This document shows, one piece after another, positions 1 through 15,857 of a stretch of 16,521 bases of DNA (the stretch's first letter is position 1; each line of letters starts with the position of its first letter). Location: contig CAAHDP010000454.1 in NCBI GenBank assembly GCA_900770515.1, positions 1 through 16,521 of the forward strand. Direction: 5' to 3'. The notes beneath the pieces are model-generated. The model did not search any database, was not told the DNA's origin, and saw only the letters and a program-made list of their open reading frames with translations. The stretch comes from an uncultured Prevotella sp. (lineage in GTDB: Bacteria > Bacteroidota > Bacteroidia > Bacteroidales > Bacteroidaceae). The translations under genes were made by a program, and so were the position numbers.

Positions 1-45
1 CTTGTCGTATTCCCGTCTTCGTCTGTCCTCGTCACTTTTAACCAA

Positions 46-85
46 AATGAGGAAAGCAACTGATAACCAGTAAACTTTCCTCATT
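46..85. terminator. Nested hairpin, possible terminator of the preceding unit
   Basis: The arms AATGAGGAAAG (46-56) and CTTTCCTCATT (75-85) are perfect reverse complements of 11 bp. Inside them lies a second perfect 4-bp stem, ACTG (59-62) with CAGT (68-71), around the loop ATAAC. The structure is followed on the + strand by a pyrimidine-rich stretch and a T5 run at 100-104. There is no classical U-tract directly at the stem base, so terminator is an inference. It could also be the end of a small mobile or repeat element. One open frame from the left edge stops at 71-73, inside the structure, as expected if an upstream gene ends here. Confidence 0.5.
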
Positions 86-137
86 CTTCTCTCAAACACT
101 TTTTATATGTACTTTCATAAAGGAAAACTATCAGTTA

Positions 138-524
138 TTGGATTTTTGTTGTCAAGACAAGAACTTTTTGTTTGGTTTTTCCAAAATGCTCCAGTCTGCT
201 GGTCGATATATGGATAGTAATGCCATGTTGCTAAAGGGAATCAAGATAAGCAATGATCCCATGTTTTGGGTTTTGATGGGTAATAATTTTAGGTCAATGG
301 AAATGTTAGATGATGCCATCAGATGTTATGATGTGGCAGATGAAATGCTGCCCAACAGATTGTATCCATTGTATAAGAAAATGCTTTTGTGGCAAGAACG
401 AGGAAATGTAACCCAAGCTAAAAAATGTGCAGGCGAATTGTTGCGCCGAGTTCCCAAACGTTCTTCTTCTGCAGTGAAAGATATGCAAGCAGAAGCTTGT
501 CGGATTCTGAATGTTCATCAATGA
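138..524 (+). pseudogene. C-terminal TPR fragment, probable remnant of an O-antigen-ligase/TPR-type membrane protein
   Basis: The open frame runs from just after a stop at 48-50 to TGA at 522-524. It has no credible start: the first candidates are TTG at 138 and ATG at 186, neither with a ribosome binding site. The protein resembles tetratricopeptide helices. A segment reading DPMFWVLMGNNF is followed by a DDAIRCYDVADEMLPNRLYPLYKK helix pair and an EAK-type repeat helix ending in LRRVPK. From memory, this pattern matches the C-terminal tail of Bacteroidota O-antigen-ligase-like proteins, in which membrane segments precede TPRs. Those membrane segments and most of the repeats are missing, and a hairpin sits where they should be. 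I infer a decayed or truncated gene. It may instead be a short independent TPR protein. Loss of the upstream part by the window edge is unlikely, because all three frames are closed before 75. Confidence 0.5.
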
Positions 525-674
525 AAATCCGATATTCCTGGTGAAGCAACATCATGTTTCTGTAACTTTGTTCTATGTAACATATCTAGGTTGAAGATAA
601 CTTGAAACTGTTGAATTAGGAAAATATAAACAAAAAGTAAATTTGAAAATAGTGGAGCATAATTTAATTTTTCT

Positions 675-682
675 TATTTTTG
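675..682 (+). promoter_or_regulatory. Candidate Bacteroidota -7 element upstream of the first NVEALA gene
   Basis: TATTTTTG matches the Bacteroidota sigma-ABfr -7 consensus TAnnTTTG and lies 54 bp before the ATG at 737. A convincing -33 TTG at the usual spacing is not visible. The surroundings are so AT-rich that a chance match is possible. Confidence 0.45.
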
Positions 683-716
683 CAGTGGCATCAGAAAGTA
701 GTGGATGCGTTTTTAT

Positions 717-726
717 TAACTTAATA
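717..726 (+). promoter_or_regulatory. Shared leader element upstream of NVEALA gene 1
   Basis: TAACTTAATA ends exactly 10 nt before the ATG. The identical decamer occurs at the identical distance before the second NVEALA gene (2385-2394). Neither gene has a Shine-Dalgarno sequence, so this may be part of the translation-initiation region. A conserved untranslated leader inherited from a duplication would also explain it. Confidence 0.4.
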
Positions 727-736
727 CATTAAATAT

Positions 737-1003
737 ATGAAGAAGAAATTTTTGTTAGGAATTCCTTGCGCAGCGATAGCTATCGCAAGTGTTATCGGAG
801 TAAGTCAGTTTGATTCAGAGAATCTTGCTGGAAATGACTTGCTGATGGAGAATGTTGAGGCTTTAGCTAGTGGTGAGGGTGAAATTTTTATTCCATGTTA
901 TAGCGTTAAAGACAGAACATATACTTTTAATATTAAAGATGCGGCTGGTCAATTTGGTACTGCTACAGTACGTGATGCCGAAAAGGCAGCTCCTTATGCT
1001 TAA
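737..1003 (+). CDS. NVEALA-family small exported protein (copy 1)
   Basis: This is an 88-residue protein with a basic N-terminus (MKKK) and a hydrophobic segment at about residues 5-23, consistent with an exported or membrane-inserted leader. It is followed by NDLLMENVEALA at residues 33-44, the signature of the NVEALA family of small Bacteroidota proteins. The family's function is not established. The motif ending in A-L-A could be a processing site, which would release a 44-residue C-terminal peptide; this is inference. The C-terminal part has only one cysteine (in IPCYS), fewer than copy 2, and ends in an alanine-rich tail. The ATG at 737 is the only sensible start. A propeller lipoprotein gene follows after a 79-bp spacer containing a hairpin. 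The pairing recurs downstream, so the two genes probably act together. Confidence 0.85.
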   Translation: MKKKFLLGIPCAAIAIASVIGVSQFDSENLAGNDLLMENVEALASGEGEIFIPCYSVKDRTYTFNIKDAAGQFGTATVRDAEKAAPYA

Positions 1004-1010
1004 AGAAATG

Positions 1011-1033
1011 ATAGGGAGTTTAGAACTCCCTAT
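1011..1033 (+). terminator. Intercistronic hairpin (attenuator or processing stem)
   Basis: ATAGGGAGTT (1011-1020) and AACTCCCTAT (1024-1033) form a perfect 10-bp stem with a TAG loop, 7 nt after the stop of NVEALA copy 1 and 49 nt before the lipoprotein start. The following bases (TATTGTAAA) are only weakly U-rich. I expect partial termination or 3'-end stabilisation rather than full termination, giving more small protein than lipoprotein. Confidence 0.6.
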
Positions 1034-1082
1034 TATTGTAAATAGTAAAAAGTAGTATGATAGAAAAAATGATTTAAAGACA

Positions 1083-2168
1083 ATGGTGAAAGTAAATTTT
1101 ATAGCAAGTTTCTTGTTGGCAATTGTGATGCTTACTTCTTGTTCTAATGTAGCGAAGAAGAGCATTGAGGATTTGACTGTAGAAAATATACAAGGTACGT
1201 TATTGCATCCTGATGATAAATGTATAGGAGCTTATCCTCGTTTGATAACGCAAGATTTTTGGCTTTCTCAGGTGTATAGAGATGATGTGAATTGCTGCAT
1301 CTGCGTACAAGATGGAGATTCGCTTTTGGCTAAAAGAAATGTATTTAATAGGGGAAAAGGAAGGGGTGAGTATGATGAAGTCTCTTTTGCCTTGTCTTCT
1401 GATGGGGCTTTGGGGGTGTTGAATTATGCTAATGGAAATCAGTTGCTGTCTTTTTCTTCTTTCCCAAAATCTGATTTGAACCGATTGGATTTTAGCAAGG
1501 GGCAACGTTTTGATTTGACCAAATTGCCTTCTATTCGTTTTGCAACTAATAGTTTTCAGGTATTGTCTGATTCTACCATATTGTTGCCAGGTGCTCCGTT
1601 CTCTCAGGCTGGACATCTGTTTTCAATTATTGATTTTAAGAATCTAAAGGCAGAAACGTTGGACTTTTGGCCGCAAGATAAGTTTGCTGGTGATAGTCTG
1701 TCTAAGCATTCTGTTTATACAGACAACAGTAGAATTTTCAAATCGAAAGACCGCTTCTTGTACCTTTGTGGATGGGAAAGGTATGCATTTATATTTTCTA
1801 TAGATAAGAATAAGGTGGAAGCCAAAAGTGAATTGTTCTCGGTGAAACCCGAATATAAGGAAGCTCCTGATGGTAATTATGAACTATTAAAGAATTCGGG
1901 TAAGAGATTGGCTATTGATGTTGATGAGGATGCTATTTATGTATTGATGATAGAAAAGAACTTATATGGTAAGACTCCTAAGAATTATATGGAATCTCAA
2001 TATGGCAATGAGATACAAGTGTATGATTGGGATGGAAATCCAATACGTAGAATAGCTCTGGACAAAGTGGGGAGCAGTATAAAGATTTCTGCTGATAAAA
2101 AGAAATTATATTTGTTCTCTGAAAATCCAAAGACTAAAGTTGATGAAATATGGATGTATAATCTTTAG
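1083..2168 (+). CDS. BF3164-type (TolB-like propeller) lipoprotein paired with NVEALA copy 1
   Basis: The 361-residue protein has a lipoprotein signal peptide: MVKVNF, a hydrophobic stretch, then the lipobox LTSC with lipidated Cys at residue 20. The rest is soluble and beta-rich, with repeated blade-like strands, for example FWLSQVYRDD, FQVLSDSTILLPG and IQVYDWDGNPIRRIALD. A GKGRGEYDE segment corresponds to the glycine-rich turn seen in Bacteroidota TolB-like/BF3164 6-blade propeller lipoproteins. The family's biochemical role is unknown. It presumably sits in the outer or inner membrane facing the periplasm or the surface. There is no Shine-Dalgarno sequence. The gene follows NVEALA copy 1 after a hairpin-containing spacer and ends 236 bp before NVEALA copy 2. 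Family assignment is from pattern recognition. Confidence 0.8.
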   Translation: MVKVNFIASFLLAIVMLTSCSNVAKKSIEDLTVENIQGTLLHPDDKCIGAYPRLITQDFWLSQVYRDDVNCCICVQDGDSLLAKRNVFNRGKGRGEYDEVSFALSSDGALGVLNYANGNQLLSFSSFPKSDLNRLDFSKGQRFDLTKLPSIRFATNSFQVLSDSTILLPGAPFSQAGHLFSIIDFKNLKAETLDFWPQDKFAGDSLSKHSVYTDNSRIFKSKDRFLYLCGWERYAFIFSIDKNKVEAKSELFSVKPEYKEAPDGNYELLKNSGKRLAIDVDEDAIYVLMIEKNLYGKTPKNYMESQYGNEIQVYDWDGNPIRRIALDKVGSSIKISADKKKLYLFSENPKTKVDEIWMYNL

Positions 2169-2384
2169 AAACAACAGAAAGACGTGTCTGAACTTCACGG
2201 CTTTCCTTCCTGCAATCAGCAAGAAGTCGATGATGAAGATTAAAGATCCAGTAAGGTCAAGGAATCTGAATAGAATTAGCTATGCATGCTTGTTTGATAT
2301 AAGCAATGATGTGGATACGCAATGGATGAACTACTACATGAAGTTTGGCCTACTTACTCGACGCTTAACAGATGAAAATTATAA

Positions 2385-2394
2385 TAACTTAATA
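2385..2394 (+). promoter_or_regulatory. Shared leader element upstream of NVEALA gene 2
   Basis: TAACTTAATA lies exactly 10 nt before the ATG at 2405, the same sequence and spacing as at 717-726. The rest of the 236-bp gap (2169-2404) shows no clear TAnnTTTG box, no strong hairpin and no convincing gene. Confidence 0.4.
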
Positions 2395-2404
2395 GAAAAT
2401 AACA

Positions 2405-2788
2405 ATGAAGAGAAAAATGATTTTTGGAATTTCATGCGTAGCAGTAGCTATTGCAGGATTAATATATGTTAACAAGTCAAACTCCGTAAAATTGGTGGAG
2501 AATGACTTGTTGATGGAGAATGTTGAGGCTTTAACCCAAAATGATTATCCTCAAGGTCCACCGCTTACCAATTGGAAAAAATATGATGTTATTTGCCCAG
2601 AAAAAATGATAACTACAACAATCTTTGTGGAACTTTCTGCAGGTGCTGTTATACCAGTAGGAGCTGTTCCTGTATATGTTAATGGAAAATTAGGGTATAA
2701 TAAAACTGTAACCAAAACTTATAAGCCTGTTGTGGAAAAATGTGGACAAGGTGCAGGTAGTTGTTTTATAAGTAAAAATTGTGATTGA
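2405..2788 (+). CDS. NVEALA-family small exported protein (copy 2), first gene of the putative pump operon
   Basis: This 127-residue protein has the same build as copy 1: MKRK, a hydrophobic segment at about residues 5-22, then NDLLMENVEAL at residues 33-43, exactly the same positions. The final Ala of the motif is Thr here (NVEALT). If processed at the motif, the mature part would be about 83 residues with four cysteines (64, 113, 120, 126). The last three lie in a C-terminal CGQGAGSC...NCD cluster, suggesting disulfides or metal binding outside the cytoplasm. The central part (VELSAGAVIPVGAVPVYVNGK) is beta-prone. The stop codon overlaps the next start in TGATG, pointing to translational coupling with the propeller lipoprotein and, through it, the efflux genes. 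The family is clear; the function is unknown. Confidence 0.85.
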   Translation: MKRKMIFGISCVAVAIAGLIYVNKSNSVKLVENDLLMENVEALTQNDYPQGPPLTNWKKYDVICPEKMITTTIFVELSAGAVIPVGAVPVYVNGKLGYNKTVTKTYKPVVEKCGQGAGSCFISKNCD

Positions 2789-4002
2789 TGAAAGAAAGGA
2801 TGAGAAATATTTTGTTTTTTATCATGGTCTTGTTTTTTTATTCTTGTTCGTCAGAAAAGCAAGGTAGGAATGCAGTTGACTATTCCATGATGAATAATTT
2901 GAAAGTAAGTGTAGAAAAAGCTGTTGACATAGATGTCAAAAGCGCAATGTGTTTGTCTGCTTCTGAATTTATGAAGAATCATCTTGAGGCTTTGACGTAT
3001 GTTCAGTTGGATAGTGCTCTTCCTTTAGGAAATGTTGAAAAGCTAACTGTAGCAGGACGTAAGGTAGCCTTATTGTCAAGAAGCCAAATTTATGCTTATG
3101 ATTTAGATACTGGGAAGTTGCTTTATCATATAGATAAAAAGGGGCATGGACATAATGAATATGTGGATATTCGTAATATTCAGATTATTCCTGAGGACAA
3201 TGAAATAATGGCAGTCGATGACCTTGGTAAGTCGTATTTTTATTTCGATTTGAATAATGGTCAATTCTTACGCAAGGAAACAAGTTTAATCGGCTCGATG
3301 GTTGCTTGTAAATATAATCATTTATATTTTAGTTCCATTGTCAATGGAAATGATTTTAACGACCGGGAAACATGGGGGCTGGTTGCCTCTGATAGCACAA
3401 AGTTAAGGTATAAGCAATTTCTGCTATATCCTTTGCAGGAAGGGGACTTTGTGGTGGATAATTTACATGTTTTTGATAATAAACTGTTTTATACCCCTGT
3501 TTTCTCAGATACGATCTATTCGGTTAATGACAAAAATAATGTTTCTGCTACTTATGTCATAAATCAGAAAAATAGCATTTGGACAAAGAAAAAGGAACAT
3601 TTGTCTTTTAGCAGAATATTGGAGTTGATGACTCGGAATGGGTATACTTGCCTTGATGGTAACAGAATATTTATATCGAAAGATGTTCTTTTCTTTCAAT
3701 TGTTAAAAGGCCGAAGAAATGGTTTCCTAGAGGAAAAGTATGTATATAATATTAAAGATAAAAAACTTTATAATTTGCAGACGAACGAATTGTTTGGAGA
3801 ACAATTTTCAGTCTTTCCTCATGTAATTTGTGATGTGGATAAGAATACATTTTATGGTATATATTTGGATGGACAAAAGTTTAAGGATATTTGCAAATCA
3901 GCGAATTTACAGATAACTGATGAGAAATTAAAAAAGGTATTGGAATCAAAGCAAATAAATCATAATCCGATTTTGGTTTCATTTAAAATGAAAAGAACAT
4001 GA
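2788..4002 (+). CDS. 6-bladed beta-propeller lipoprotein coupled to NVEALA copy 2 and TolC
   Basis: The protein has 404 residues from the ATG at 2788, preferred over the in-frame TTG just before it because ATG overlaps the previous stop as TGATG. The N-terminus is MKERMRNILFFIMVLFF followed by the lipobox FYSC, so it is a predicted lipoprotein. The start of the domain reads YVQLDSALPLGNVEKLTVAGRKVALLSRS, then YAYDLDTGKLLYHIDKKGHGHNEYVDI. This is the strand and 'GxGxxEY' turn layout of the Bacteroidota 6-bladed beta-propeller (DUF5128/BF3164-like) lipoproteins. Overall similarity to the lipoprotein at 1083-2168 is in architecture more than in sequence. The last 4 bp overlap the TolC start as ATGA. 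A sensing or scaffolding role for the exported small protein or the pump is possible but inferred. Confidence 0.8.
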   Translation: MKERMRNILFFIMVLFFYSCSSEKQGRNAVDYSMMNNLKVSVEKAVDIDVKSAMCLSASEFMKNHLEALTYVQLDSALPLGNVEKLTVAGRKVALLSRSQIYAYDLDTGKLLYHIDKKGHGHNEYVDIRNIQIIPEDNEIMAVDDLGKSYFYFDLNNGQFLRKETSLIGSMVACKYNHLYFSSIVNGNDFNDRETWGLVASDSTKLRYKQFLLYPLQEGDFVVDNLHVFDNKLFYTPVFSDTIYSVNDKNNVSATYVINQKNSIWTKKKEHLSFSRILELMTRNGYTCLDGNRIFISKDVLFFQLLKGRRNGFLEEKYVYNIKDKKLYNLQTNELFGEQFSVFPHVICDVDKNTFYGIYLDGQKFKDICKSANLQITDEKLKKVLESKQINHNPILVSFKMKRT

Positions 4003-5507
4003 AGGGGCATCAGAAAAAAGAATATATTGTGAGAAGTTGTTTTATACGTTCTTTATTGATAGCCTGTTGCTTTGGTGGTTTTTCGCCGCTTCACGCTCAG
4101 ACTGCTGTTTCTCTGGACAATGCCATAGCCATTGCCCAGAGAAACTCTTATGATGCCCAGTTGGCTAGGTTTAGTTTCTTGTCTAGCTATTGGACCTATA
4201 AGTCCTTTCGGGCAGAGCTGTTGCCTTCCATGAGCCTGACGGGAGGCATCATGAACTTTAATCATTCTCGGGTAGAGGCTAGAAATGCTGAGGATGGTAA
4301 GATCAATTATGTGGATAACAACTCTTTGGTCAACTCGCTGACCTTATCCTTGGAACAGCAGATTAGCTCCTTGGGAGGAACATTGTCGTTGCAGTCTTAT
4401 CTTTACCGACTGGATCAGTTTGATTATAAGATGACTACTTACAACACTCTGCCTTTGCGCTTGTCTTATTCCCAACCTTTCACATCATATAATGAGATGA
4501 AGTGGCGAAAGAAGATGGAACCAAAGGAATATGAAAGAGCCAAGCGGATATATTGTGAGAGTATCGAAAGCATCGCCATTCGGGTGGCTTCTCTTTATTT
4601 TGCTGCCATATCTGCGCAGTCGGATTATAACCAGAGTGTAACTAAATTGAAGGATTTGGAAGATCTTTATGCTATGTCGCAAAAGCGATTGTCACTGGGT
4701 ACGATTACGAAGGGTGACTTGCTGCAACTGGAATTGTCGATGCTCAATGCCAAGGTTACACGCAATGAGGCACAGGTCAAGATGAATGATGCTTTCTATG
4801 ATTTGTTCTCCTATATGAGGGTTAGTCATGATGAGAAAGTAATACTCTTGCCCCCCGAGAATGTCATTGAACAGGTGCTCAATGTGAATGAGGTGTTGCA
4901 AAAAGCGATGAATAATTCATCACATGCCATAGGACAAGACCTGGATTTGCTCTCTGCCCAACAGACTCTTGCCAAGGCTAAGGCGGCTCAAGGCATCCAG
5001 ATGCAGCTCAATGCGGAAGTGGGATTTAATCGTACGGCTGATGGCTTTGCATCCGCTTATAGTCATCTGCAAGACAATGAGATTATTGGCTTGACCATCT
5101 CCGTACCCATCTTTGACTGGGGAGTGAAGAAAGGCAGGGTGATGGTGGCAAAGTCGAATCTTGAGCTTGCCAAGACCAAGAAAGAGCAAGCTGATAACGA
5201 TTATGTGCAGAGCATCAAGCGAGAGGTGATGCAGTTTAGCTTGCAGGCAGAGCAATGCCGTACCTCAAAGCGTGCCCAGAAGATTTCGGAAGAGCGTTAT
5301 GAAATCACGAAGAAGAGATTTGAGACAGGCAATGTGTCGGTGACGGAGCTGAACACAGCCTTGCAGGAACTGGAGACGGCGAAGGCGCAATACATCGGAC
5401 AATTGCAGTCGTATTGGAATTATTATTATACTCTGCGCAAGTTTACCCTTTATGATTGGGTGGAACATAGAGACCTGATTGCCGATTTCGAGGCTCTGGT
5501 CAAGTAA
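3999..5507 (+). CDS. TolC-family outer-membrane efflux channel
   Basis: This is the outer-membrane factor of a tripartite efflux pump. It is predicted to form a trimeric beta-barrel plus alpha-helical tunnel that lets substrate leave the cell. The protein has 502 residues with a signal peptide ending about PLHA (residues 30-33), then SLDNAIAIAQRNSYDAQLA, the usual start of the OEP domain. Two OEP-type repeats follow, each rich in long amphipathic helices. Examples are YAMSQKRLSLGTITKGDLLQ in the first half and SEERYEITKKRFETGNVSV with ELNTALQELETAKAQY near the end, the classic second-repeat motif. The start overlaps the upstream lipoprotein stop (ATGA) and has no Shine-Dalgarno sequence, so translation is likely coupled. 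The adaptor gene follows 35 bp downstream. Codon choice becomes clearly more GC-rich from this gene on. Confidence 0.92.
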   Translation: MKGHQKKEYIVRSCFIRSLLIACCFGGFSPLHAQTAVSLDNAIAIAQRNSYDAQLARFSFLSSYWTYKSFRAELLPSMSLTGGIMNFNHSRVEARNAEDGKINYVDNNSLVNSLTLSLEQQISSLGGTLSLQSYLYRLDQFDYKMTTYNTLPLRLSYSQPFTSYNEMKWRKKMEPKEYERAKRIYCESIESIAIRVASLYFAAISAQSDYNQSVTKLKDLEDLYAMSQKRLSLGTITKGDLLQLELSMLNAKVTRNEAQVKMNDAFYDLFSYMRVSHDEKVILLPPENVIEQVLNVNEVLQKAMNNSSHAIGQDLDLLSAQQTLAKAKAAQGIQMQLNAEVGFNRTADGFASAYSHLQDNEIIGLTISVPIFDWGVKKGRVMVAKSNLELAKTKKEQADNDYVQSIKREVMQFSLQAEQCRTSKRAQKISEERYEITKKRFETGNVSVTELNTALQELETAKAQYIGQLQSYWNYYYTLRKFTLYDWVEHRDLIADFEALVK

Positions 5508-5542
5508 GACGTGGAGGGGTAAATCTATAACATCATAAGGAT

Positions 5543-6628
5543 ATGGCTAAAAAACATTATTTATATTTCATGGTGGCTTGTGCATTGTTAGGCTCTTTAT
5601 GTGCATGCAAACATAAGAATACGGAGGGAGATGGACAGGATATACCAACAGCTGATAGCTTGACTACAGAGATTTATGTAGATACGTTGAGGCTGAGGGA
5701 GCAGACATTCCATCGCCAGTTGGTTTGCAACGGCAAGTTGCGAGCCTTGGAAAAATGTGATTTGTCGTTAGCTGATGGGGGCAGCGTGGATCAGGTATTC
5801 GTGCATAATGGTGAAGTGGTGAGAAAGGGGCAGCTCATAGCCAGGACGGATGCTGCTGATGCCAAGCTGAGTGTGGAAAAAGCATCTCGTGATTTGGAGA
5901 ATGCCCGGATAGCCCTTGCCGATAAGTTGATCGGTTTGGGTTATAATGGCATTTCGGATGCCGTGCCTGCCGATGTGATGCATAGGGCAAAGGTTACCTC
6001 TGGATACTTTGCTGCCACTTACCAATTGCAGGCTGCAAAGCGTCTGCTGACGAAATGCGCCTTGGTTGCCCCATTCTCTGGTCGTATTACCGACTTGGTC
6101 AATAAGCGACATCAACGGGTGGATAAACTCTGTTGCTTGGTAAATGATACCCAGTTGGATGTGGAGTTTGAGGTCTTGGAGGCAGAAATCAAGCAGGTGC
6201 ATGTAGGGCAGACGGTATGGGTGAATCTCTTTGCGGATGATACTGAGCGATATAAGGGGCAAGTGGTGAATGTGAATCCTGCGGTCAGTGACAAGGGACT
6301 GATTAAGGTGATGGCTCGCATCCCTAATGCCCAGGGCAAGCTGATGGATGGTATGAATGTGAAGGTCATCGTGGAAAACGATGTGCCGCATTCGTTGGTG
6401 GTGCCTAAGGATGCCGTCATCGAACGTGATGGCTACCATGTGGTCTTCCTCTATGACAAGGGCGAGGCGGTATGGACCTATGTGGATGTATTGCATTCCA
6501 ATATACATTCTTATGCAATAGGGGGATGCAAACGGAAGGAGACACAAATCAAGGCTGGTGACGTGGTCATCACGTCGGGCAACTTAAACTTGGCAGATGG
6601 CACCGAGGTGCATGTAAGGAATAAGTAA
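5543..6628 (+). CDS. RND efflux periplasmic adaptor (HlyD/MFP family lipoprotein)
   Basis: This membrane-fusion protein links the inner-membrane RND pump to TolC. The protein has 361 residues with the N-terminal lipobox LCAC and probable lipidation at Cys22, as in AcrA-type adaptors. The domains run in the expected order. The first biotinyl-lipoyl half is GGSVDQVFVHNGEVVRKGQLIARTD. A helical hairpin of about residues 110-170 follows, then the second lipoyl half, KCALVAPFSGRITDLVNKRHQRVDK. A beta-barrel holds VEFEVLEAEIKQVHVGQTVWV, and a membrane-proximal domain holds LVVPKDAVIERDG and ends in GDVVITSGNLNLADGTEV. The hairpin is short, as usual for RND partners. An AAGGA stretch just before ATG 5543 is a modest ribosome binding site. 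The last codons are formed by the first unit of a short tandem repeat. Confidence 0.92.
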   Translation: MAKKHYLYFMVACALLGSLCACKHKNTEGDGQDIPTADSLTTEIYVDTLRLREQTFHRQLVCNGKLRALEKCDLSLADGGSVDQVFVHNGEVVRKGQLIARTDAADAKLSVEKASRDLENARIALADKLIGLGYNGISDAVPADVMHRAKVTSGYFAATYQLQAAKRLLTKCALVAPFSGRITDLVNKRHQRVDKLCCLVNDTQLDVEFEVLEAEIKQVHVGQTVWVNLFADDTERYKGQVVNVNPAVSDKGLIKVMARIPNAQGKLMDGMNVKVIVENDVPHSLVVPKDAVIERDGYHVVFLYDKGEAVWTYVDVLHSNIHSYAIGGCKRKETQIKAGDVVITSGNLNLADGTEVHVRNK

Positions 6629-6663
6629 TAAGGAATAAGCATAAGGAATAAGTAATAAGGAAT
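6615..6663 (+). repeat. Short tandem repeat across the adaptor stop codon
   Basis: TAAGGAATAAG occurs at 6615-6625, 6629-6639 and 6642-6652, with a fourth partial unit from 6656. The unit period is 13-14 bp. The first copy encodes the end of the adaptor (RNK) and borders its TAA stop. The others fill the spacer before the first RND gene. Each copy carries an AAGGA core that could act as a weak ribosome binding site. Confidence 0.75.
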
Positions 6664-6684
6664 TAGGAATTAATTTTGGGGTAT

Positions 6685-9600
6685 ATGATAAATTATTTGA
6701 TGAAGCGTCCTATAGCTGTCACCATGATACTGGTAGCCATCATGGTGATAGGCATGATTGGCATCAGGAACATGCCTGTTTCCCTGATGCCCGATATGGA
6801 TGTGCCCCAGGTTACGGTGCAAGCCAGTATGCCTGGATATTCAGCCCAAGAGATGGAGCAGAAGGTTATTGCCCCCTTGCGCTTGAACTTGTCTCGTGTA
6901 GCTGGTGTGAAGAGCGTCAACTCCGATTCTCGCATGGGGAAGGGAAGTGTCTTGATGAAGTTTGAGCCTGGTGCCAACATGGATATGTTCTTTATCGAGG
7001 TAAATGAAAAGGTAGATTTGACGATGGTTCATTTGCCTAAGGAGATGGAACGCCCTAAAATCATTAAGGCTAGTGCCATGGATATTCCTGCTTTTTACCT
7101 GGATATATCCATAAAGAATGAGCGTGCATGGGGCAAGGCTTCCCCTCAGTTTGCCCAATTGTGTGATTTTGCCGCCAATGTCGCCAGCAGAAGATTGGAG
7201 CAGTTGCCTTCTGTGGCTATGGTGGATATGAGCGGCATGGTCTCTTCCGAGATTAGGTGTATTCCTGAGCAGAAAAAGATGGAGGCACTGGGATTGACGA
7301 TTCAAGACCTACAGAGTGCTTTGGCTGACAACAACGTCCAGTTGACTTCTTTGTCTGTAGTGGATGGCATATATCGTTACAATATCCATTTTGACAGTCA
7401 GATATTGACTGTTGATGATGTGCGCAACATCTATATCAAGCATGCCGGCAGACTGTTGCAGCTGAAGGATCTGTGCCAGATAGAAGAGTGTGCGGCATTG
7501 CGAAAGAATTTTGTGCGCCATGATGGGAAGAATTGTGTTACGCTGGCTGTCATCAAGCAGAGTGATGCCCAGATGGGTGATCTGCAGGAGGCTATATCGG
7601 ATGTTGTGGCTAGCTTGCAAAAGGCAAACCCCAGTTTGGAGTTTGATGTGACAAGAGACCAGACCGAATTGCTGGATTATTCCATCCATAATCTGGAGTG
7701 GAACCTTTTGGCAGCCATCTTTTTTACGGCAATGGTGCTGGTTCTCTTCTTGCGAAGATGGAGATTGGCTTTGCTGGTGGCATTGTCTATCCCCGTATCT
7801 CTGGTGATAACCTTGCTTTGTTTTAAGTTGGCAGGCATATCCATCAATATCATTTCCCTTTCTGGACTGATCTTGGGTGTGGGTATGATTGTAGACAACT
7901 CCATTATCGTGATAGATAATATCTTGCAGAAGCAAAGAGGCGGAGCGCAACTGGAGAAGGCGGTATGCAAGGGCACTGCCAGTGTCTTTGCTCCCATGCT
8001 GAGTTCGGTGCTTACCACTTGCAGCGTTTTCATACCACTGATATTCATTGGCGGAATGGCTGGTACGCTCTTCTTTGACCAAAGCATGGGCATTACCATT
8101 GCCCTGTTCTCTTCCTTGGCGGTGAGTGTGCTGGTGTTGCCTGTTTATTTCTATGTATTGCATGTAAGGCAACACAAGGCACAGAATGTTGAGCAGCAAA
8201 CGATGATGCAGCCAAGTAAGTTGCACCATATTATATATGGGTATTATGACCGGATGCATGCCTGGACTTTTGCCCATTTGCGTTTATGCCTTGGTTTGTC
8301 TTTGTTGGCGATACCGGGGCTTGTTCTTGTCTTTTGGGTGTCCGACAAGCGGCAGATGCCAGCGATGAATGCTTCTGATGGAATCATGTATGTGGATTGG
8401 AATGCTAATATCTCTGTAGAGGAAAATGACAGACGCATGGGTGAGGTGCTGAGGCTATGTGATGACCAGACCCAAACTTACACTTCGATGGTGGGTAGCC
8501 AGGACTTCATGTTGTTTCATACCAGGGAGATATCATCTTCTGAGGCATTGGCTTACCTGAAGGGGAAGAATGAGGAACAGTATGAGGAGTGCCAAAAGAG
8601 ATTGCAAGCATGTATCTCTCAGAGATATCCTGAAGCTACCGTCTCCTTTGCTCCATCGGGCAATCTGTTCGATTTGATCTTCTCTTCCGGGCAACCTGAG
8701 CTATGCATCAAGTTGCAAGACCATTTGGGGCATCGTCCATCTGTAAATCAGGCTGAGGCTTACGTAGATTCTCTTCGCAGGCATTTCCCATCTTTGGATA
8801 TTCCATCTGTCGTGGTAGAGGACAATTTGGTGTTGGAGGCTGATGTGGAACAGATGTCATTGTACGGTATCTCCTATGACCAGCTTTATGATAGGTTGCG
8901 CCAAATGACGGGCAGCAATGAGGTGCTGCGCATCCATCAGGGAGCGGTTTCCCAACCCGTTGTCGTGGGTGCTGCTGAGGCTGATAGAAATACCCTGATG
9001 GCTGCGTCTATCAAAAATCAGACAGGGGTGGATGTTCCCTTGCAACTCCTTTTAAAAGAGAGGAAGGAGTCTGGTTTCAAGCATTTGTATGGATCGGAAG
9101 AAGGTGAGTTTTACCCGATAGAGCTGAGTACGACCGGGGGGCATGTGGATGATGTGCTTGACTTTGTGGCTCGCAGCAACCAAAGGTCTAGTGAACTGAA
9201 GGCATCCGTTAGTGGTGATTATTTCCTGAGCCAGCAAGCCGTCCTGCAAATGGTTGGGGTCTTGTTGGTATCCGTCCTGCTGCTGTTCTTTATATTGGCA
9301 GCGCAGTTTGAGAGTTTGGTTCAGCCATTTATCATCCTCTCCGAGATGGTGTTGGATATTTTTGTGGTGTTGGTTATCCTGTATCTGTTGAGGCTGCCGA
9401 TAGACCTGATGTCTATGACGGGACTTATCGTGATGGCAGGTATCGTTATCAACGACTCCATCCTGAAGGTGGATACCATCAATGGGCATCGCAAGAGCGG
9501 CATGCCTTTGTTGGAGTCAATCGTCAAGGCGGGCAGGGAACGTTTGTTGCCGATATTGATGACCTCGCTTACCACCATCTTCTCTTTGGTGCCATTTCTC

Positions 9601-9735
9601 TCAGGTGGTTCAATAGGGGCTGACTTGCAATTCCCTCTCTCGCTCACCATCTTGGTGGGCATGGTTGTGGGTACAGGAGTGAGCATCTTCTTTGTGCCTA
9701 TTCTCTATTATGTAATTTATCGGAAAAGAAAGTAA
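6685..9735 (+). CDS. RND efflux permease, HAE1/AcrB-like (first of a tandem pair)
   Basis: This is a proton-driven inner-membrane transporter of the RND superfamily. I start it at ATG 6685 (MINYLMKRPIAVTM), giving 1016 residues. The TTG at 6676 adds only three residues and has no support. The layout is standard: TM1 at residues 10-28, the large periplasmic loop 1 (PGYSAQEMEQKVIAPL is the porter-domain start), TM2-6 from about 340 to 500, the second loop at about 570-850, then TM8-12. TM4 carries GMIVDNSIIVIDNI with Asp404-Asn405 at the place of the AcrB D407-D408 pair, so one of the two relay acids is Asn. This is common in HAE1 relatives. TM10 has GIVINDSILKVD with Asp924 instead of the AcrB Lys940 region. 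The substrate cannot be told from sequence. The second permease starts 9 bp downstream. Confidence 0.93.
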   Translation: MINYLMKRPIAVTMILVAIMVIGMIGIRNMPVSLMPDMDVPQVTVQASMPGYSAQEMEQKVIAPLRLNLSRVAGVKSVNSDSRMGKGSVLMKFEPGANMDMFFIEVNEKVDLTMVHLPKEMERPKIIKASAMDIPAFYLDISIKNERAWGKASPQFAQLCDFAANVASRRLEQLPSVAMVDMSGMVSSEIRCIPEQKKMEALGLTIQDLQSALADNNVQLTSLSVVDGIYRYNIHFDSQILTVDDVRNIYIKHAGRLLQLKDLCQIEECAALRKNFVRHDGKNCVTLAVIKQSDAQMGDLQEAISDVVASLQKANPSLEFDVTRDQTELLDYSIHNLEWNLLAAIFFTAMVLVLFLRRWRLALLVALSIPVSLVITLLCFKLAGISINIISLSGLILGVGMIVDNSIIVIDNILQKQRGGAQLEKAVCKGTASVFAPMLSSVLTTCSVFIPLIFIGGMAGTLFFDQSMGITIALFSSLAVSVLVLPVYFYVLHVRQHKAQNVEQQTMMQPSKLHHIIYGYYDRMHAWTFAHLRLCLGLSLLAIPGLVLVFWVSDKRQMPAMNASDGIMYVDWNANISVEENDRRMGEVLRLCDDQTQTYTSMVGSQDFMLFHTREISSSEALAYLKGKNEEQYEECQKRLQACISQRYPEATVSFAPSGNLFDLIFSSGQPELCIKLQDHLGHRPSVNQAEAYVDSLRRHFPSLDIPSVVVEDNLVLEADVEQMSLYGISYDQLYDRLRQMTGSNEVLRIHQGAVSQPVVVGAAEADRNTLMAASIKNQTGVDVPLQLLLKERKESGFKHLYGSEEGEFYPIELSTTGGHVDDVLDFVARSNQRSSELKASVSGDYFLSQQAVLQMVGVLLVSVLLLFFILAAQFESLVQPFIILSEMVLDIFVVLVILYLLRLPIDLMSMTGLIVMAGIVINDSILKVDTINGHRKSGMPLLESIVKAGRERLLPILMTSLTTIFSLVPFLSGGSIGADLQFPLSLTILVGMVVGTGVSIFFVPILYYVIYRKRK

Positions 9736-9744
9736 AAAGTAACA

Positions 9745-12700
9745 ATGAAACTGTCTTCATTCTCTGTGATATTGACCTTTGTCATCTTGATGATAGTGGG
9801 TGCGGCTCTGTTGCCGTTGGTGGATGTGGGTACCGAACCTCAGAACCAGCGGGATAATCGTCTGGTCATCAGGTGCGAATGGCCACAGGTGTCGGCTAAG
9901 ATTGTAGAGCAAAATCTGACGACACCGATAGAGGGAATGGTCTCTGCGCTGAAAGGGGTGGAGCGTGTTTCCTCCCGCTCTTCCTATGGCAGCAGCGAGA
10001 TTGTTGTTTGGGCAAAGGAAAAGGTGGATGTTGCGGCTTTGCGATTCTCGGTTACTTCTCTGTTGCGCCAGTCGTATGCCAAGTTGCCCAAGGGTGCTGG
10101 CTATCCTGTGGTGGAAGGTGGCGAGGTAACCGGTGGTGCGAGAATGCACCAAGAGCAACAGCTGCTTCTCACTTATCAGGTGAATGGTGATATGCCGCCC
10201 GAAATGCTGAAGAAGCTTGTTTCAGGAAATGTGGTGCGACGCTTGCAGTTGCTGGATGGCGTGGACCGGGTAGAGGTGGCAGGAACCACGGATAAGTATG
10301 TGGAGGTGAGCTATGACCCGATGGCACTTGCTGCTTGTGGCATCACAAGCCAAGACTTGCAGGATGGAATCCGCAATTTCCTGGGAAAGGACGAGGTGGT
10401 TGGCACGATGCTGCATACCACTGCGGACAACAGGAAGGAGCGGATTGCTTTTCGATTGAAAACGGCATGCGATGGAAAGCAGCTTGCTGATGTTCCCATC
10501 AAGGTCAATGGCAATCGGGTGGTTTATCTCAATGATTTGGCTAGGATTCATGTCAAGCGATATGAGCCTTCTGGCTTTTATCGTGTGAATGGATTGAATA
10601 CGGTATATGTGAATGTTTATGCAAAGCCTGCAGCTCGCATCTTGCATCTGTCTGACCAGGTGCAAGACGAGATGGAGACTGTCAAGGGTGAATTGCACAG
10701 TCCGTTGTATGTGCATTTGTCATACGATGTGGCTCAACTCCAACGAGAAGAAATGTCCAAGCTGATAGGGCGTAGCCTAGCCTCATTATTCATCCTGCTG
10801 CTCTTTGTGTGGGTCATTTACCGCAATGCCAGGTATCTTATGGTGGTGACATCGGCTTTGGCGGCTAACATCTTGATAGCTGTAATCATCTATTGTGCTT
10901 GTGGCATCAAACTGCATATTTATTCGTTGGCAGGCATTACGGTGTCGCTTGGCATTATCATCGATTCTGTCATTGTCATGGCCGACCATTATGCCTATTA
11001 TCACAACCGGAAGGCTTTCCTTTCCATGCTGGCAGCGATGTTGACAACCATAGGCTCGCTTGTCATCGTCTTTTTCCTGCCAGAGGAATTGCAGGCAGAC
11101 TTGTATGATTTCGCCCTGATTATCGTCATCAACCTGGTTGTTGCCTTGTTGGTGGCTCTCTTCTTTGTGCCTGCAGCCATGCAAAGATGCAAGTGCCAAG
11201 CTCCGAGCGTCTTTAGGGGCAAGCGCAGATGGGTGGTCTGTTGGAATCATTTCTATAGACGCTATATCTTGATGGCATCGCGCCGCAAATGGATAGTCTA
11301 TATCGTCTTGGTGTGGGCATTCGGCATACCATTCCAAGCTTTGCCTGAAGATTGGAAAAGTGCTACAACGGATAAATTGGCTTCTTGTTTTGGAGGTACG
11401 ATTCAGCTCTTTGCTGATTATCTGAACGAGCATGAGCAGACCAGAAAAGCTGATGGGGACAAAGTGCTTCATATACAGGGATTGATGCCTGTGGGAGGCA
11501 CAGCCGTGCAGCTGAACGAGAAGATGGTCATCGTGGAGGAATTGCTGAAAAAATATCCGGAAATCAAGGAGTTTGTTACTCGCATAGATGGTCGGCAAGG
11601 TGAAATCACGGTGAAATTCAAGAAGAATGTGCCTGCCGGTTTTCCTTATCGCCTGGAGTCGAAGGTGATAGGCAAGGTTATCACGGTCGGGGGTGCCGAC
11701 TGGAGTACCTACGGCATCAGCGAACGAGGTTTTAGCAATTCCATCAACCTTCAATATCGTGCTACCAAAATCAAGGTGTCGGGCTATAACTATGCCCGAC
11801 TGTATCAGGTGGCAGAGAGCATGGCTGATTATTTGGGTAAGAATCCTAGGGTGCAAGACATTGCCGTGGAGACTCCTGGCTTTGAGAACCAAGAGGAGGA
11901 ACTCTATATGCGGTATGACAAGGATAGGATGAGCCTTTATGGTGTTGAGGCTGGTGATGTGCATCGCAAGTTGGGCAGCTTGTTGCAGCGGGTGTATGTG
12001 GATTCTTATCGGGACAAGGCGCATCCTGCTGATGTTTACCTGGCTCCTGAGCCTCAGGTGCCTTATGATTTGTGGAGTATGGAGAACAGCCAGATGCAGG
12101 TAGATAGCAGCCAGGTGCTTCTCTCCGATGTCATGATGTTGCAGCGCCGTGAGGCTAAGGAAGTTATACCAAAAGAGAATCAGGAGTATGTGCTCAATGT
12201 GGCATTCAATATATTGGGTTCGTACACCTATTCGGCTGAGTATATGGATAGCGTCATGGCTCATTTCAATAGAAGCATGCCGATAGGTTTTCGTTGCGAG
12301 ACGGCTGCCTATTACAATCCCATCAAGGAGAAGTCAAACTATTGGCTTCTCTTGGTGGTGGCAGTCTTGATATTTTTCATCTGCTCAGTGGTCTTCGAGT
12401 CTCTCTGGCAGGCTTGGGTTGTGGTGCTCATGATTCCTGTTTCCCTGATGGGGGCATTCTTGACCTTCGTATTGTTTGATGTAGGCTTTGGCAGTGGTGG
12501 CTTTGCTTCTCTTGTCTTGTTGAGTGGTCTCGTGGTGAATGCTTCCATCTATATACTTTGTCAATACAATTTGGTGGTTAAGTTGCGCAAGCGGGATGCC
12601 GTGTCGGCTTATCTCTGTGCCTTCAATCACAAGATTTTACCGATATTCTTGACGATAGTCTCTACCATCTTGGGGTTGTTGCCATTCTTTTGGGAGCGGG

Positions 12701-12813
12701 ATGAGGAACCTTTCTGGTTCTCTTTTGCCACGGGGGTGACGGGCGGTTTGCTCTTCTCCATCCCGATGCTGGTGTTCATCATGCCGCTATTGATGAAAAT
12801 GAGAACGAAATGA
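9745..12813 (+). CDS. RND efflux permease, divergent second member of the tandem pair
   Basis: This 1022-residue RND protein has the same topology as its neighbour but very different sequence. It starts MKLSSFSVILTFVILMIVGAALLP (TM1), followed by the porter-domain entry VEQNLTTPIEGMVSALKGVERV. TM4 reads GIIIDSVIVMADHY with a single Asp407 followed by Ser. TM10 reads LLSGLVVNASIYILCQYN with no charged residue, so a key part of the AcrB-type relay (D408, K940) is missing. The TM5-6 region (LLTTIGSL-type segment) is shortened and less conserved. It starts 9 bp after the first RND stop without a Shine-Dalgarno sequence. By analogy with MdtB/MdtC it may form a heterotrimer with the first permease and be partly or wholly inactive in proton transfer; this is inference. 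It may also be an independent pump sharing the adaptor and TolC. Confidence 0.9.
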   Translation: MKLSSFSVILTFVILMIVGAALLPLVDVGTEPQNQRDNRLVIRCEWPQVSAKIVEQNLTTPIEGMVSALKGVERVSSRSSYGSSEIVVWAKEKVDVAALRFSVTSLLRQSYAKLPKGAGYPVVEGGEVTGGARMHQEQQLLLTYQVNGDMPPEMLKKLVSGNVVRRLQLLDGVDRVEVAGTTDKYVEVSYDPMALAACGITSQDLQDGIRNFLGKDEVVGTMLHTTADNRKERIAFRLKTACDGKQLADVPIKVNGNRVVYLNDLARIHVKRYEPSGFYRVNGLNTVYVNVYAKPAARILHLSDQVQDEMETVKGELHSPLYVHLSYDVAQLQREEMSKLIGRSLASLFILLLFVWVIYRNARYLMVVTSALAANILIAVIIYCACGIKLHIYSLAGITVSLGIIIDSVIVMADHYAYYHNRKAFLSMLAAMLTTIGSLVIVFFLPEELQADLYDFALIIVINLVVALLVALFFVPAAMQRCKCQAPSVFRGKRRWVVCWNHFYRRYILMASRRKWIVYIVLVWAFGIPFQALPEDWKSATTDKLASCFGGTIQLFADYLNEHEQTRKADGDKVLHIQGLMPVGGTAVQLNEKMVIVEELLKKYPEIKEFVTRIDGRQGEITVKFKKNVPAGFPYRLESKVIGKVITVGGADWSTYGISERGFSNSINLQYRATKIKVSGYNYARLYQVAESMADYLGKNPRVQDIAVETPGFENQEEELYMRYDKDRMSLYGVEAGDVHRKLGSLLQRVYVDSYRDKAHPADVYLAPEPQVPYDLWSMENSQMQVDSSQVLLSDVMMLQRREAKEVIPKENQEYVLNVAFNILGSYTYSAEYMDSVMAHFNRSMPIGFRCETAAYYNPIKEKSNYWLLLVVAVLIFFICSVVFESLWQAWVVVLMIPVSLMGAFLTFVLFDVGFGSGGFASLVLLSGLVVNASIYILCQYNLVVKLRKRDAVSAYLCAFNHKILPIFLTIVSTILGLLPFFWERDEEPFWFSFATGVTGGLLFSIPMLVFIMPLLMKMRTK

Positions 12814-12944
12814 GGTCATTACAATGAACGGGTTTTTATCATTTGCAAGCATTATTTTGCCCTATAAACATGAGAATTCATAATCTTTAATGATAATTAT
12901 CCAAATATTATTGTTAAGTTTACACTATTATGGAAACTTTTGTG

Positions 12945-12952
12945 TATCTTTG
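12945..12952 (+). promoter_or_regulatory. Bacteroidota -7 promoter element for the GH127 gene
   Basis: TATCTTTG is a perfect TAnnTTTG match, 153 bp before the ATG at 13106, in an AT-rich intergenic region downstream of the RND pair. A TTG sits about 30 bp upstream (12911-12913), farther than ideal for a -33 box. It implies a leader of roughly 145 nt and separates this gene from the pump operon. Confidence 0.65.
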
Positions 12953-12978
12953 CAGCAGCTTAGCAGCACTCGGCCATT

Positions 12979-12994
12979 TGAAAGCAAGCTTTCA
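12979..12994 (+). promoter_or_regulatory. Palindromic hairpin in the 5' leader of the GH127 gene
   Basis: TGAAAGC (12979-12985) and GCTTTCA (12988-12994) are perfect inverted 7-mers with a 2-nt centre, about 30 nt downstream of the -7 element. In RNA the central bases would open to a short loop. It could be an RNA leader structure or a dimeric operator in DNA. The surrounding leader (12953-13080) has no gene. Confidence 0.45.
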
Positions 12995-13105
12995 TTGCGC
13001 TCGTTTGCATAAGCTGTGCACCGTTGTAAGGCTTCTTATAGAGAAAGTTTACGACAGGAAAGAATAAACAACAACTATAATTAATATCAATAAACCCGAT
13101 AAGCA

Positions 13106-15187
13106 ATGAAGAGATTTATTTCAGCAGTACTTCTCTCTGCCGCCGTGGCAATGCCAACAATGGCGCAGAAGAGTAACAAGGTGTTGAGCAATGGCTATCC
13201 ATTCACTCAAGTACCATTCACCAGTGTGAAGATTTCACAGAACACCTTCTGGGGTGCCCGCCTGAAGGCTGCCCGAGAAGTAACCGTGCCATTGGCTTTC
13301 AGCAAGTGTGAGAGCGAGCACCGTTACAAGAACTTCGAGATGGCTGCCTATACCCTGCAGCATCCTAACCACCCGGGTTTGAATACCAAGGAGTGGGATC
13401 TGAGCAAGTTGATGGGCTTCTCTTTCGATGATACCGATGTGTATAAGACCATCGAAGGTGCCAGCTACATCCTCCAGACTTATCCGGACAAGAAGTTGAA
13501 GGCTTACATCGACAGCGTGCTCGATGTGGTGGGTGCGGCACAGGAGCCGGATGGCTATCTCTATACAGCCCGCACCATCAATCCGAAGCATCCACACGGA
13601 TGGTCGGGAAATAAGCGATGGGTGAAGGACGAGGATTTGAGTCATGAGCTTTACAACCTCGGTCACATGGTAGATGCAGCCTGTGCTCACTATCAGGCTA
13701 CGGGTAGCACCAAGTTCCTGAACATCGCCAAGCGCTATGCCGATTGTGTGGTCAAGGAAGTGGGACCTAATCCAGGACAGGCTACCATCGTTCCGGGACA
13801 CCAGATTGCAGAGATGGCTTTGGCTCGTCTTTATACCTTGACCGGTGAGAAGAAGTATCTGGATGAGGCTAAGTATCTGCTTGACTATCGTGGCAAGACT
13901 CATATCCGCAACCCATATTCTCAGAGCCAGGCTCCTATTCTGGAGCAGAAGGAGGCAGTGGGTCATGCGGTGCGTGCCGGATACATGTATGCCGGTATCG
14001 CAGATGTGGCTGCCCTGACCAAGGATTCTGCTTATATGAAGGTTATCGACCGTATCTTCGAAAACATCGTTGGCAAGAAATACTATCTTACAGGTGGAGT
14101 TGGTGCCCGCCATGCCGGAGAGGCATTCGGTGATAACTATGAGTTGCCAAACATGACTGCCTATAACGAGACCTGTGCAGCCATCTCTATGGTTTACCTC
14201 TTCGAACGCATGTTCCTCCTTCATGGCGAGAGCAAGTATATCGACTGCATGGAGCGTACCTTATATAATGGTGTCATATCTGGTATGAGCATGGATGGTG
14301 GCAGATTCTTCTATCCAAACCCATTGTCAAGCGATGGCAAGTATAAGTTTAATGCCGATGGCAACACCACCCGCCAGCCATGGTTCGGATGTGCCTGCTG
14401 CCCAAGTAACCTGAGCCGCTTCATCCCTTCTGTTCCGGGTTATCTCTATGGCGTGAAGGATAACAATATCTACGTAAATCTCTTTGCCGGCAATAAATCT
14501 ACCATCAAGGTGAATGGCAAGGATGTAGTTCTGGAGGAGACTACCGAGTATCCTTGGAACGGCGATATCAAGATTGCTGTGAAGAAGAGTGGTGTGAAGA
14601 ATGCCAACCTTCTGATTCGTATTCCTGGATGGGTTCGCAATCAGGTGGTGCCTAGCGATCTTTACAAATATAGCGATGCCGAGAAGCCAGCTTATAGCGT
14701 AACCGTAAACGGCAAGGCTGTAGAGGCTGACCTCGATGCCAATAAGGGTTATCTCCCTGTCAAGAACATCAAGAAGGGTGATGTGATTCGTATCCACTTC
14801 GATATGCCTGTTCGCACCGTAGTGGCAAATGCTAAGGTTGCTGATGACAACGACAAGATAGCTGTAGAGCGCGGTCCATTGGTATATTGCGCTGAGGCTG
14901 TGGATAATAGCAATGAACCTGTGCTCCATGCCGTTATGCCAGAGAAGCCAAGCTTCACTCTCGTTGACAACTACAGCATCCAGAACACGGAGACCAAGGG
15001 AGCCCCAGCCTTCACCGTAAAGGCTATCGTTACCTCTCCTGCCCATATTATCTACCAGAAGAAGGAGGGAGTGGTCGCTGTAGATTGCACCCCTCTCACC
15101 CTGATTCCTTACTATGCCTGGAATCATCGTGGTGCTAACCAGATGAATGTCTGGTTCTATCAGGGCTTGTCGTTTATGGATAAGTAA
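13106..15187 (+). CDS. Secreted GH127/DUF1680 glycoside hydrolase, probable beta-L-arabinofuranosidase
   Basis: The enzyme has 693 residues with a signal peptide ending AMPTMA|Q (cleavage after residue 20), so it acts in the periplasm or outside. The fold expected is an (alpha/alpha)6 barrel at about residues 35-455 followed by C-terminal beta-sandwich domains. The active site of the Bifidobacterium HypBA1 type is intact. GEAFG contributes Glu339 (acid/base), NETCA contributes Glu355 and Cys357, and CACCPSN contributes Cys431 (nucleophile) and Cys432. The Glu and three Cys form the zinc site. The offsets to HypBA1 E322, E338/C340 and C417/C418 are consistent (17, 17, 14). Likely substrates are beta-L-arabinofuranosides from plant cell-wall glycoproteins or pectic side chains. 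Other GH127/146-like specificities cannot be excluded. The gene has its own promoter and terminator and no SusC/D partners in view. Confidence 0.92.
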   Translation: MKRFISAVLLSAAVAMPTMAQKSNKVLSNGYPFTQVPFTSVKISQNTFWGARLKAAREVTVPLAFSKCESEHRYKNFEMAAYTLQHPNHPGLNTKEWDLSKLMGFSFDDTDVYKTIEGASYILQTYPDKKLKAYIDSVLDVVGAAQEPDGYLYTARTINPKHPHGWSGNKRWVKDEDLSHELYNLGHMVDAACAHYQATGSTKFLNIAKRYADCVVKEVGPNPGQATIVPGHQIAEMALARLYTLTGEKKYLDEAKYLLDYRGKTHIRNPYSQSQAPILEQKEAVGHAVRAGYMYAGIADVAALTKDSAYMKVIDRIFENIVGKKYYLTGGVGARHAGEAFGDNYELPNMTAYNETCAAISMVYLFERMFLLHGESKYIDCMERTLYNGVISGMSMDGGRFFYPNPLSSDGKYKFNADGNTTRQPWFGCACCPSNLSRFIPSVPGYLYGVKDNNIYVNLFAGNKSTIKVNGKDVVLEETTEYPWNGDIKIAVKKSGVKNANLLIRIPGWVRNQVVPSDLYKYSDAEKPAYSVTVNGKAVEADLDANKGYLPVKNIKKGDVIRIHFDMPVRTVVANAKVADDNDKIAVERGPLVYCAEAVDNSNEPVLHAVMPEKPSFTLVDNYSIQNTETKGAPAFTVKAIVTSPAHIIYQKKEGVVAVDCTPLTLIPYYAWNHRGANQMNVWFYQGLSFMDK

Positions 15188-15204
15188 TAAATAGTTTTTT
15201 TAAT

Positions 15205-15243: not shown

Positions 15244-15294
15244 TTAATATAGGTTAATCCCATTAAGAAAAACACTTCTTTTCCGTTTATGTTG

Positions 15295-15302: not shown

Positions 15303-15326
15303 AACAAATAAAACAAAAGAGAGCAA

Positions 15327-15827: not shown

Positions 15828-15857
15828 CCCTTATATATAAATAGATATAATCAATGA

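Follow-up and report, generated by a model that had tools for sequence, protein, structure and literature searches.

A contig of an uncultured Prevotella sp. raises the question of why genes for small exported proteins should be joined to an efflux pump. The window, that is, the whole stretch of 16,521 nucleotides analyzed here (GenBank assembly GCA_900770515.1, contig CAAHDP010000454.1, positions 1 to 16,521 of the forward strand), encodes two precursors with the NVEALA motif, each followed by a propeller lipoprotein, and then a TolC-family outer-membrane channel, a periplasmic adaptor and two permeases of the resistance-nodulation-division (RND) type. Our answer, drawn from sequence comparison, is that the gene set probably constitutes a two-step peptide secretion system, in which a precursor would pass through Sec, be cut after the NVEALA box by an S26 signal peptidase encoded in the cluster, be oxidized and then be released by the RND-TolC pump. 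A more specific version, namely proton-driven RND-TolC secretion of hypervariable, disulfide-bonded peptides, with NVEALA as a dedicated signal-peptidase box and with its own propeller lipoprotein for each peptide as a guard or receptor, seems to us an even bet. We know of no earlier RND machine that has a gene-encoded peptide as its natural cargo.

The core of the locus is a run of six genes on the + strand. It opens with the NVEALA-2 precursor of 127 amino acids (aa; 2405-2788), which has a leader up to NVEALT and a tail with four Cys residues, followed by lipoprotein 2, a 6-bladed beta-propeller (2788-4002; PF17170, 55.4 bits against a cut-off of 22.9; AlphaFold2 mean predicted local distance difference test, or pLDDT, of 80.3), the TolC-family channel (3999-5507; PF02321, 131.9 against 22), the adaptor (5543-6628; TIGR01730, 135.2 against 94.9), which has a lipobox-like N terminus, and the permeases RND1 (6685-9735) and RND2 (9745-12813), which score 540.2 and 271.4 bits, respectively, with PF00873 (cut-off 28). 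The start of RND1 is placed at the ATG at 6685, and the automatic open reading frame (ORF) begins at TTG 6676. The locus unites a permease, an adaptor and a TolC-type channel, all over their cut-offs, and so encodes an RND tripartite exporter; it is not a type 1 secretion system, since the permeases are RND proteins and the operon contains no other transporter gene. A preliminary description of this DNA had taken the six genes as the unit, and its joints are exact: the NVEALA-2 stop overlaps the lipoprotein 2 ATG in TGATG (2786-2790), lipoprotein 2 and TolC share ATGA (3999-4002), and gaps of 35, 56 and 9 bp separate TolC from the adaptor (5507/5543), the adaptor from RND1 (6628/6685) and RND1 from RND2 (9735/9745). 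Order and joints stand, but the unit has to be extended, as the NVEALA-1/lipoprotein 1 pair (737-2168) and a gene remnant at 138-524 belong to it too.

The arrangement recurs in relatives, for which the divergent RND2 served as a marker. From an alignment of 19 RND2 proteins, 127 candidates were confirmed and the best 80 loci kept, many of them truncated; the profiles derive from the earliest of these loci. Besides adaptor-RND-RND-TolC, the set comprises NVEALA precursors and propeller lipoproteins, two lipoproteins of other kinds (one with CxxC, one transglutaminase-like), an S26 signal peptidase, and a membrane protein with a WaaL fold and tetratricopeptide repeats (TPRs). The recurrent set is wider than the six genes envisaged earlier, and its additional part (S26, CxxC, transglutaminase-like, WaaL/TPR) is absent or truncated in the window, which is the cargo-plus-pump half of a larger conserved gene set. 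At least one partner gene is found in 41 of the 44 pump loci with 3 kb or more of sequence ahead of the pump, and in 54 of the best 80 loci. Within the 44, lipoproteins and WaaL/TPR proteins occur in 30 each, S26 in 22, CxxC in 17 and transglutaminase-like proteins in 11; as to the concern that homologous pumps might consistently lack the NVEALA/lipoprotein pair, partners are thus the rule, but NVEALA itself is present in only 16 over the stretch covered. Conversely, 17 stretches (9-40 kb) picked by strong NVEALA matches contain propeller lipoproteins in 16 cases, CxxC in 14, S26 in 13, transglutaminase-like genes in 12, WaaL/TPR in 11, the adaptor in 7 and RND in 5. The pairs of NVEALA and propeller lipoprotein are placed ahead of TolC, between the adaptor and RND1 (L008, L016, L052, L053) or farther upstream; seven NVEALA-type genes are present in L008, and L018 nearly matches the window, with two pairs ahead of TolC. 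Single-linkage gene clustering merged unrelated families and served only to look for missed partners; neither an ABC nor a C39 gene was seen among the recurrent cluster families in the part of the ORFs scanned.

Small proteins of other kinds also stand in such loci. At 20277-20516 and 22916-23182 of L008, SDANA or SDVHA replaces NVEALA in proteins of similar leader layout, perhaps a second cargo family. Cys-containing small proteins with non-NVEALA, signal-peptidase-like boxes precede the lipoproteins in L066, L073 and L078 (Geofilum, a Flavobacteriaceae bacterium and Flavivirga).

The association is also found at the level of whole genomes. Three samples, drawn from the genus (299 genomes), the family (251) and the order (198) to which the L031-bearing genome belongs and sharing a few genomes, contain 6, 49 and 8 NVEALA-positive genomes, respectively, at E 1e-3 (5, 40 and 6 over the Pfam cut-off). 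The limits for a positive pump were E 1e-100 in the genus (18 genomes), 1e-60 in the family (67) and 1e-95 in the order (32); the last was chosen after a gap had been seen between 1e-99 and 1e-79, and the query in the order sample was the RND gene of L153, unlike in the other samples. With kinship ignored throughout, the pump occurs in 5/6 NVEALA genomes versus 18/299 overall in the genus (Fisher p 2.6e-6), 42/49 versus 67/251 in the family (p 5e-23) and 7/8 versus 32/198 in the order (p 1e-5). The family exceptions number seven; a profile search detects pieces of the pump in three (G515, G349, G519), and in the other four (G339, G374, G498, G527) RND matches are weak or missing. The exceptions in the genus (G211) and order (G596) are both sub-cut-off NVEALA matches, lying in frames of 361 and 568 aa, respectively. 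When linkage was counted in six genomes against the NVEALA matches listed, 12 of 12 RND genes of the system, versus 1 of 47 other RND genes, lay within 16 kb of such a match (7/12 versus 1/47 at 10 kb; 12/12 versus 2/47 at 20 kb). In 20 control RND loci, our own pick from these 47, partner genes of the six kinds were never found. Co-occurrence in the three samples and positional linkage together bear out the earlier impression that the NVEALA/lipoprotein/pump link is no local accident.

The precursors themselves look like variable cargo behind a constant leader. The 116 distinct precursors defined by motif have a hydrophobic stretch, a box most commonly located 37 residues in (50/116) and a tail of 41 residues in the median; Cys amounts to 7.8% of the tails and 1.0% of the leaders, and the number per tail is 2, 4 or 6 in 89 precursors, odd in 25 and zero in 2. 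In 87 within-locus pairs, from which tails shorter than 20 residues were excluded, mean identity is 68% for the leader versus 24% for the tail, with the leader higher in 85. E[AG]L is present in 117 of 131 profile matches, and the residue after the box EAL is small in 116 of the 117 (A 89, S 15, T 10, C 1, G 1, L 1); the other 14 matches, several of which are partial frames, include SIAVMA, NIDANA and NVEVIA, likewise ending in A. Signal peptidases require a small residue such as Ala at the end of the cleavage site, and the end of the NVEALA box looks like such a site. Of the NVEALA genes, 61 have 1.7 kb or more of downstream room, and 49 of these are followed within 450 nt, on the same strand, by an ORF of 280-450 aa, versus 48 of 245 control ORFs. 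PF14055 matches reach 21 per genome. Among the three roles considered previously, cargo of the pump, signal or accessory factor, and ligand sensed by the lipoprotein, the first fits best, because so many matches per genome are unlike an accessory subunit.

NVEALA-1 of the window (737-1003, + strand; 88 aa) is composed of a leader up to NVEALA and a 44-residue tail and lies above the PF14055 cut-off of 27 with 29.6 bits; NVEALA-2 stays under it at 21.3 bits despite its NVEALT motif, and its leader and motif align with those of NVEALA-1. A 33-nt repeat of 97% identity (833-865 and 2501-2533) encodes the NDLLMENVEAL stretch of both genes. P0126, which combines the NVEALA-2 leader with the NVEALA-1 tail, was considered as a cassette recombinant at this repeat but not used, for it is a single sequence, its longest contig measures 1 kb, and it may reflect faulty assembly. 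Lipoprotein 1 (1083-2168, + strand; PF15869, 35.7 bits against 29.2), a TolB-like propeller, is the presumed partner of NVEALA-1. A hairpin, ATAGGGAGTTTAGAACTCCCTAT, stands at 1011-1033, directly after NVEALA-1 and ahead of lipoprotein 1, and could reduce expression of lipoprotein 1 relative to the NVEALA-1 peptide.

How might such a precursor be processed? As its leader suggests, Sec would carry the NVEALA precursor over the inner membrane. Then, as judged from the co-occurrence and the box, the cluster-encoded S26 enzyme would cut after the NVEALA box. The S26 protein of L001 scores 96.6 with TIGR02227 (cut-off 47), the proteins of the relatives qualify as type I signal peptidases, and the Ser/Lys pair, aligned on E. 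coli signal peptidase I, is intact in 31/31. Six NVEALA/pump-positive genomes each carry one or two S26 genes within their NVEALA cluster and further S26 elsewhere, and four pump-negative genomes have one S26 locus apiece. Periplasmic disulfides would next be formed through the CxxC lipoprotein, and in some loci MauE, as the Cys counts and the CxxC partner point to. The first Cys of this lipoprotein is conserved in 41/41 and the second in 39/41 aligned sequences; it is weakly redoxin-like in L053 (19.3 bits, below the cut-off of 26.6) and occurs with DUF1573 in L162. MauE was recognized by its CGC motif in 10 of the best 80 loci; a MauE profile drifted onto RND fragments and was not counted. 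Finally, the RND-TolC pump may release the tail, as its linkage suggests. Among the remaining partners, the L031 copy of the transglutaminase-like lipoprotein contains a transglutaminase core (23.8, over a cut-off of 23), and the large upstream membrane protein consists of Wzy_C plus TPRs and has a WaaL fold; a plain Foldseek run with its model gave mostly TPR proteins, and a second look ranked WaaL first.

As for the permeases, the nearest solved chain is MdtB for RND1 and 6ows, presumably an AdeB-type pump, for RND2, which is far more divergent. Neither permease (6685-12813) has the second Asp in transmembrane helix 4 (TM4) or the Lys in TM10 of AcrB-type pumps, and the same is observed in L008, L018, L053, L168 and L184 (L184 and L002 are the same place). 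The best structural match of lipoprotein 2 is 4raa, or BF0058 of B. fragilis, a putative exported protein, which gives no function. Since these lipoproteins are paired with the peptides and are divergent (33 others show 13-21% identity to lipoprotein 2), a guard or receptor role suits them, and each may recognize or protect against its own peptide.

Several points weigh against secretion of the tails by the pump. A 2026 review states that direct evidence for RND transporters exporting toxins is lacking and regards RND export as possible for peptide toxins and unlikely for large or folded proteins (PMC13175466). Disulfide-bonded tails may count as folded. Thresholds were of our own choosing, and the Fisher values and presence-absence counts ignore shared ancestry; box and label statistics are partly dependent, because the profiles came from the same loci. 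One of the 47 other RND genes is near a listed NVEALA match, and part of the NVEALA genes is dispersed, because just 16 of the 35 matches listed in the six genomes lie within 16 kb, and 27 within 40 kb, of a system pump. In 14 pump loci from 25 family genomes without a PF14055 match, a partner gene is present in 12; lipoproteins are found in 12, S26 in 3 and NVEALA, missed by the Pfam model, in 2, and two of these loci (L196, L200) were also among the best 80 and had fed the profiles. Therefore, with clusters that have lipoproteins yet mostly lack NVEALA, S26 and CxxC, the pump also works without NVEALA cargo or has an unrecognized one, and NVEALA is not the whole story of the pump clusters. 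The 13 pump loci of the genus sample (12 with a partner) are not relied on, as 10 repeat best-80 loci; three RND2-anchored stretches (L174, L179, L180) are not among the 13. In the window itself, S26, CxxC and transglutaminase-like genes are absent among the labelled ORFs of the 16,521 bases, and the tail of NVEALA-1 contains just one Cys.

These absences could mean that the window carries a decaying remnant, in which a rearrangement tied to an integrase truncated the WaaL/TPR gene and eliminated the processing genes, leaving the pump and orphan precursors; we consider this doubtful, if worth serious weighing. Bases 1-118, to which no strand is assigned, match at 96.6% identity an intergenic plasmid sequence (25704-25821 of NZ_CP137558.1, S. 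copri HDE06) upstream of a site-specific integrase gene, and the similarity stops at 118; this flank suggests Segatella copri or a near relative as the source of the DNA. From about base 123, a frame resembles, by eye, the TPR region at the C-terminal end of the WaaL/TPR protein; the remnant of 128 aa (138-524, + strand) is similar to the gene preceding the pump in relatives. Because plasmid-like sequence near an integrase abuts a truncated gene here, the junction suggests an integrase-linked rearrangement, and both junction and remnant, like the lack of processing genes over 16.5 kb, suit decay. Yet the frames from NVEALA-2 through RND2 and those of the NVEALA-1/lipoprotein 1 pair are intact, and the near-identical protein clusters of RND2 (P0001) and NVEALA-2 (P0121) hold 2278 and 268 member sequences, respectively. 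The missing genes may also sit elsewhere in the genome; with no processing genes in the window and WaaL/TPR cut, maturation here would therefore need such genes, or else the system is decaying. An exact match of the left flank was not found in viral contigs; in a plasmid search, lipoprotein 2 gave no match and RND2 gave three distant records.

A second possibility, in our judgment rather unlikely, is that the envelope retains the NVEALA tails, which would serve the propeller lipoproteins as ligands or signals, while the pump exports another product, for example, that of the WaaL-fold protein, all within a co-regulated surface-remodelling system. The numerous divergent tails, rich in Cys and preceded by one conserved leader, at up to 21 PF14055 matches per genome, are nevertheless cargo-like, and RND-TolC pumps move substrates from the periplasm to the outside. 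A conventional pump for multidrug or bile efflux, with the NVEALA/lipoprotein pairs as mere neighbours without joint function, is quite improbable. In its favour, the TolC-adaptor-RND architecture is as in drug pumps, and the nearest solved chains are MdtB (RND1) and 6ows (RND2); however, partner genes occur in 0/20 control RND loci of the same genomes, NVEALA and pump co-occur across genomes, and the permeases score far under the NCBIfam drug-pump cut-off (RND_permease_2, 1250; RND1 468.6, RND2 221.2).

Sequence around these genes adds little on their expression. A gap of 236 bp (2169-2404) directly before 2405 lies inside a 110-aa frame, and on the + strand the segment has no similar ORF, other than itself, in the related loci compared. 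The Bacteroidota promoter consensus, TTTG-N19-21-TANNTTTG, is matched nowhere in the window (0 matches) and is therefore uninformative on the earlier claim that no promoter-like gap follows 2405; its TANNTTTG half alone occurs 19 times against 11.8 expected. A sigma-70 scan (38 sites in the window against 32.5 expected) is equally uninformative. The window has no match to Rfam at gathering scores and no tRNA gene by ARAGORN. Beyond the pump, 13106-16521 contains a GH127 beta-L-arabinofuranosidase gene, followed by genes for a PG0214-family extracytoplasmic function (ECF) sigma factor and a candidate anti-sigma factor; a perfect 19-nt inverted repeat (15205-15243) lies between the GH127 and ECF sigma factor genes.

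Peptide secretion by these pumps would provide a maturation and export route for a large family of gut-bacterial peptides and an explanation of the NVEALA motif, would make RND secretion of gene-encoded peptides testable and would turn NVEALA peptides into candidates for gut competition or signalling. From the sequences at hand, the cluster is likely a route for cutting loose and releasing variable Cys-rich peptides in many Bacteroidota. The word NVEALA does not occur in the open-access literature searched, and no paper on this gene set is among the matches listed there, subscription papers and bioRxiv being outside the scope. In one paper, B. thetaiotaomicron BT0662, BT0664, BT0667 and BT0669 are named as O-antigen ligase, 6-bladed propeller, lepB and RND adaptor, respectively (PMC10434189); judged by names and order, sequence being left aside, this looks like the same cluster. 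The values printed next to the four genes point in both directions, the second exceeding 0.1 each time, and carry no weight here.

Among described families, the window proteins are members of PF14055 and PF17170/PF15869 by score, except for NVEALA-2, which is below the cut-off; these motif-based Pfam names give no function, and the link of NVEALA to S26 and an RND pump is new beyond them. Double-glycine leader peptides, which leave via ABC (ATP-binding cassette) transporters with a C39 peptidase, likewise have a conserved leader, a short variable tail and, as we suppose for NVEALA, leader removal on the export path, whereas the NVEALA box closes with EAL and one small residue instead of Gly-Gly, and its leader includes a hydrophobic stretch. 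MdtABC-type pumps have two RND permeases; the present pump shares with them an adaptor plus two adjacent permeases, with MdtB as the nearest solved chain to RND1, and differs in the far more divergent RND2, in the absence of the second TM4 Asp and TM10 Lys of AcrB, and in its peptide partner genes. Closest of all as a working analogue appears to be the heat-stable enterotoxin II (STII) of E. coli, which is reported to be secreted via Sec, Dsb and MacAB-TolC (PMC5985334). In both cases, a small disulfide-rich peptide would pass Sec, lose its leader, be oxidized in the periplasm and exit through an adaptor and TolC; STII uses an ABC transporter and the general Dsb system, whereas the NVEALA set has two RND permeases, an S26 peptidase of its own, a CxxC lipoprotein and peptide-lipoprotein arrays.

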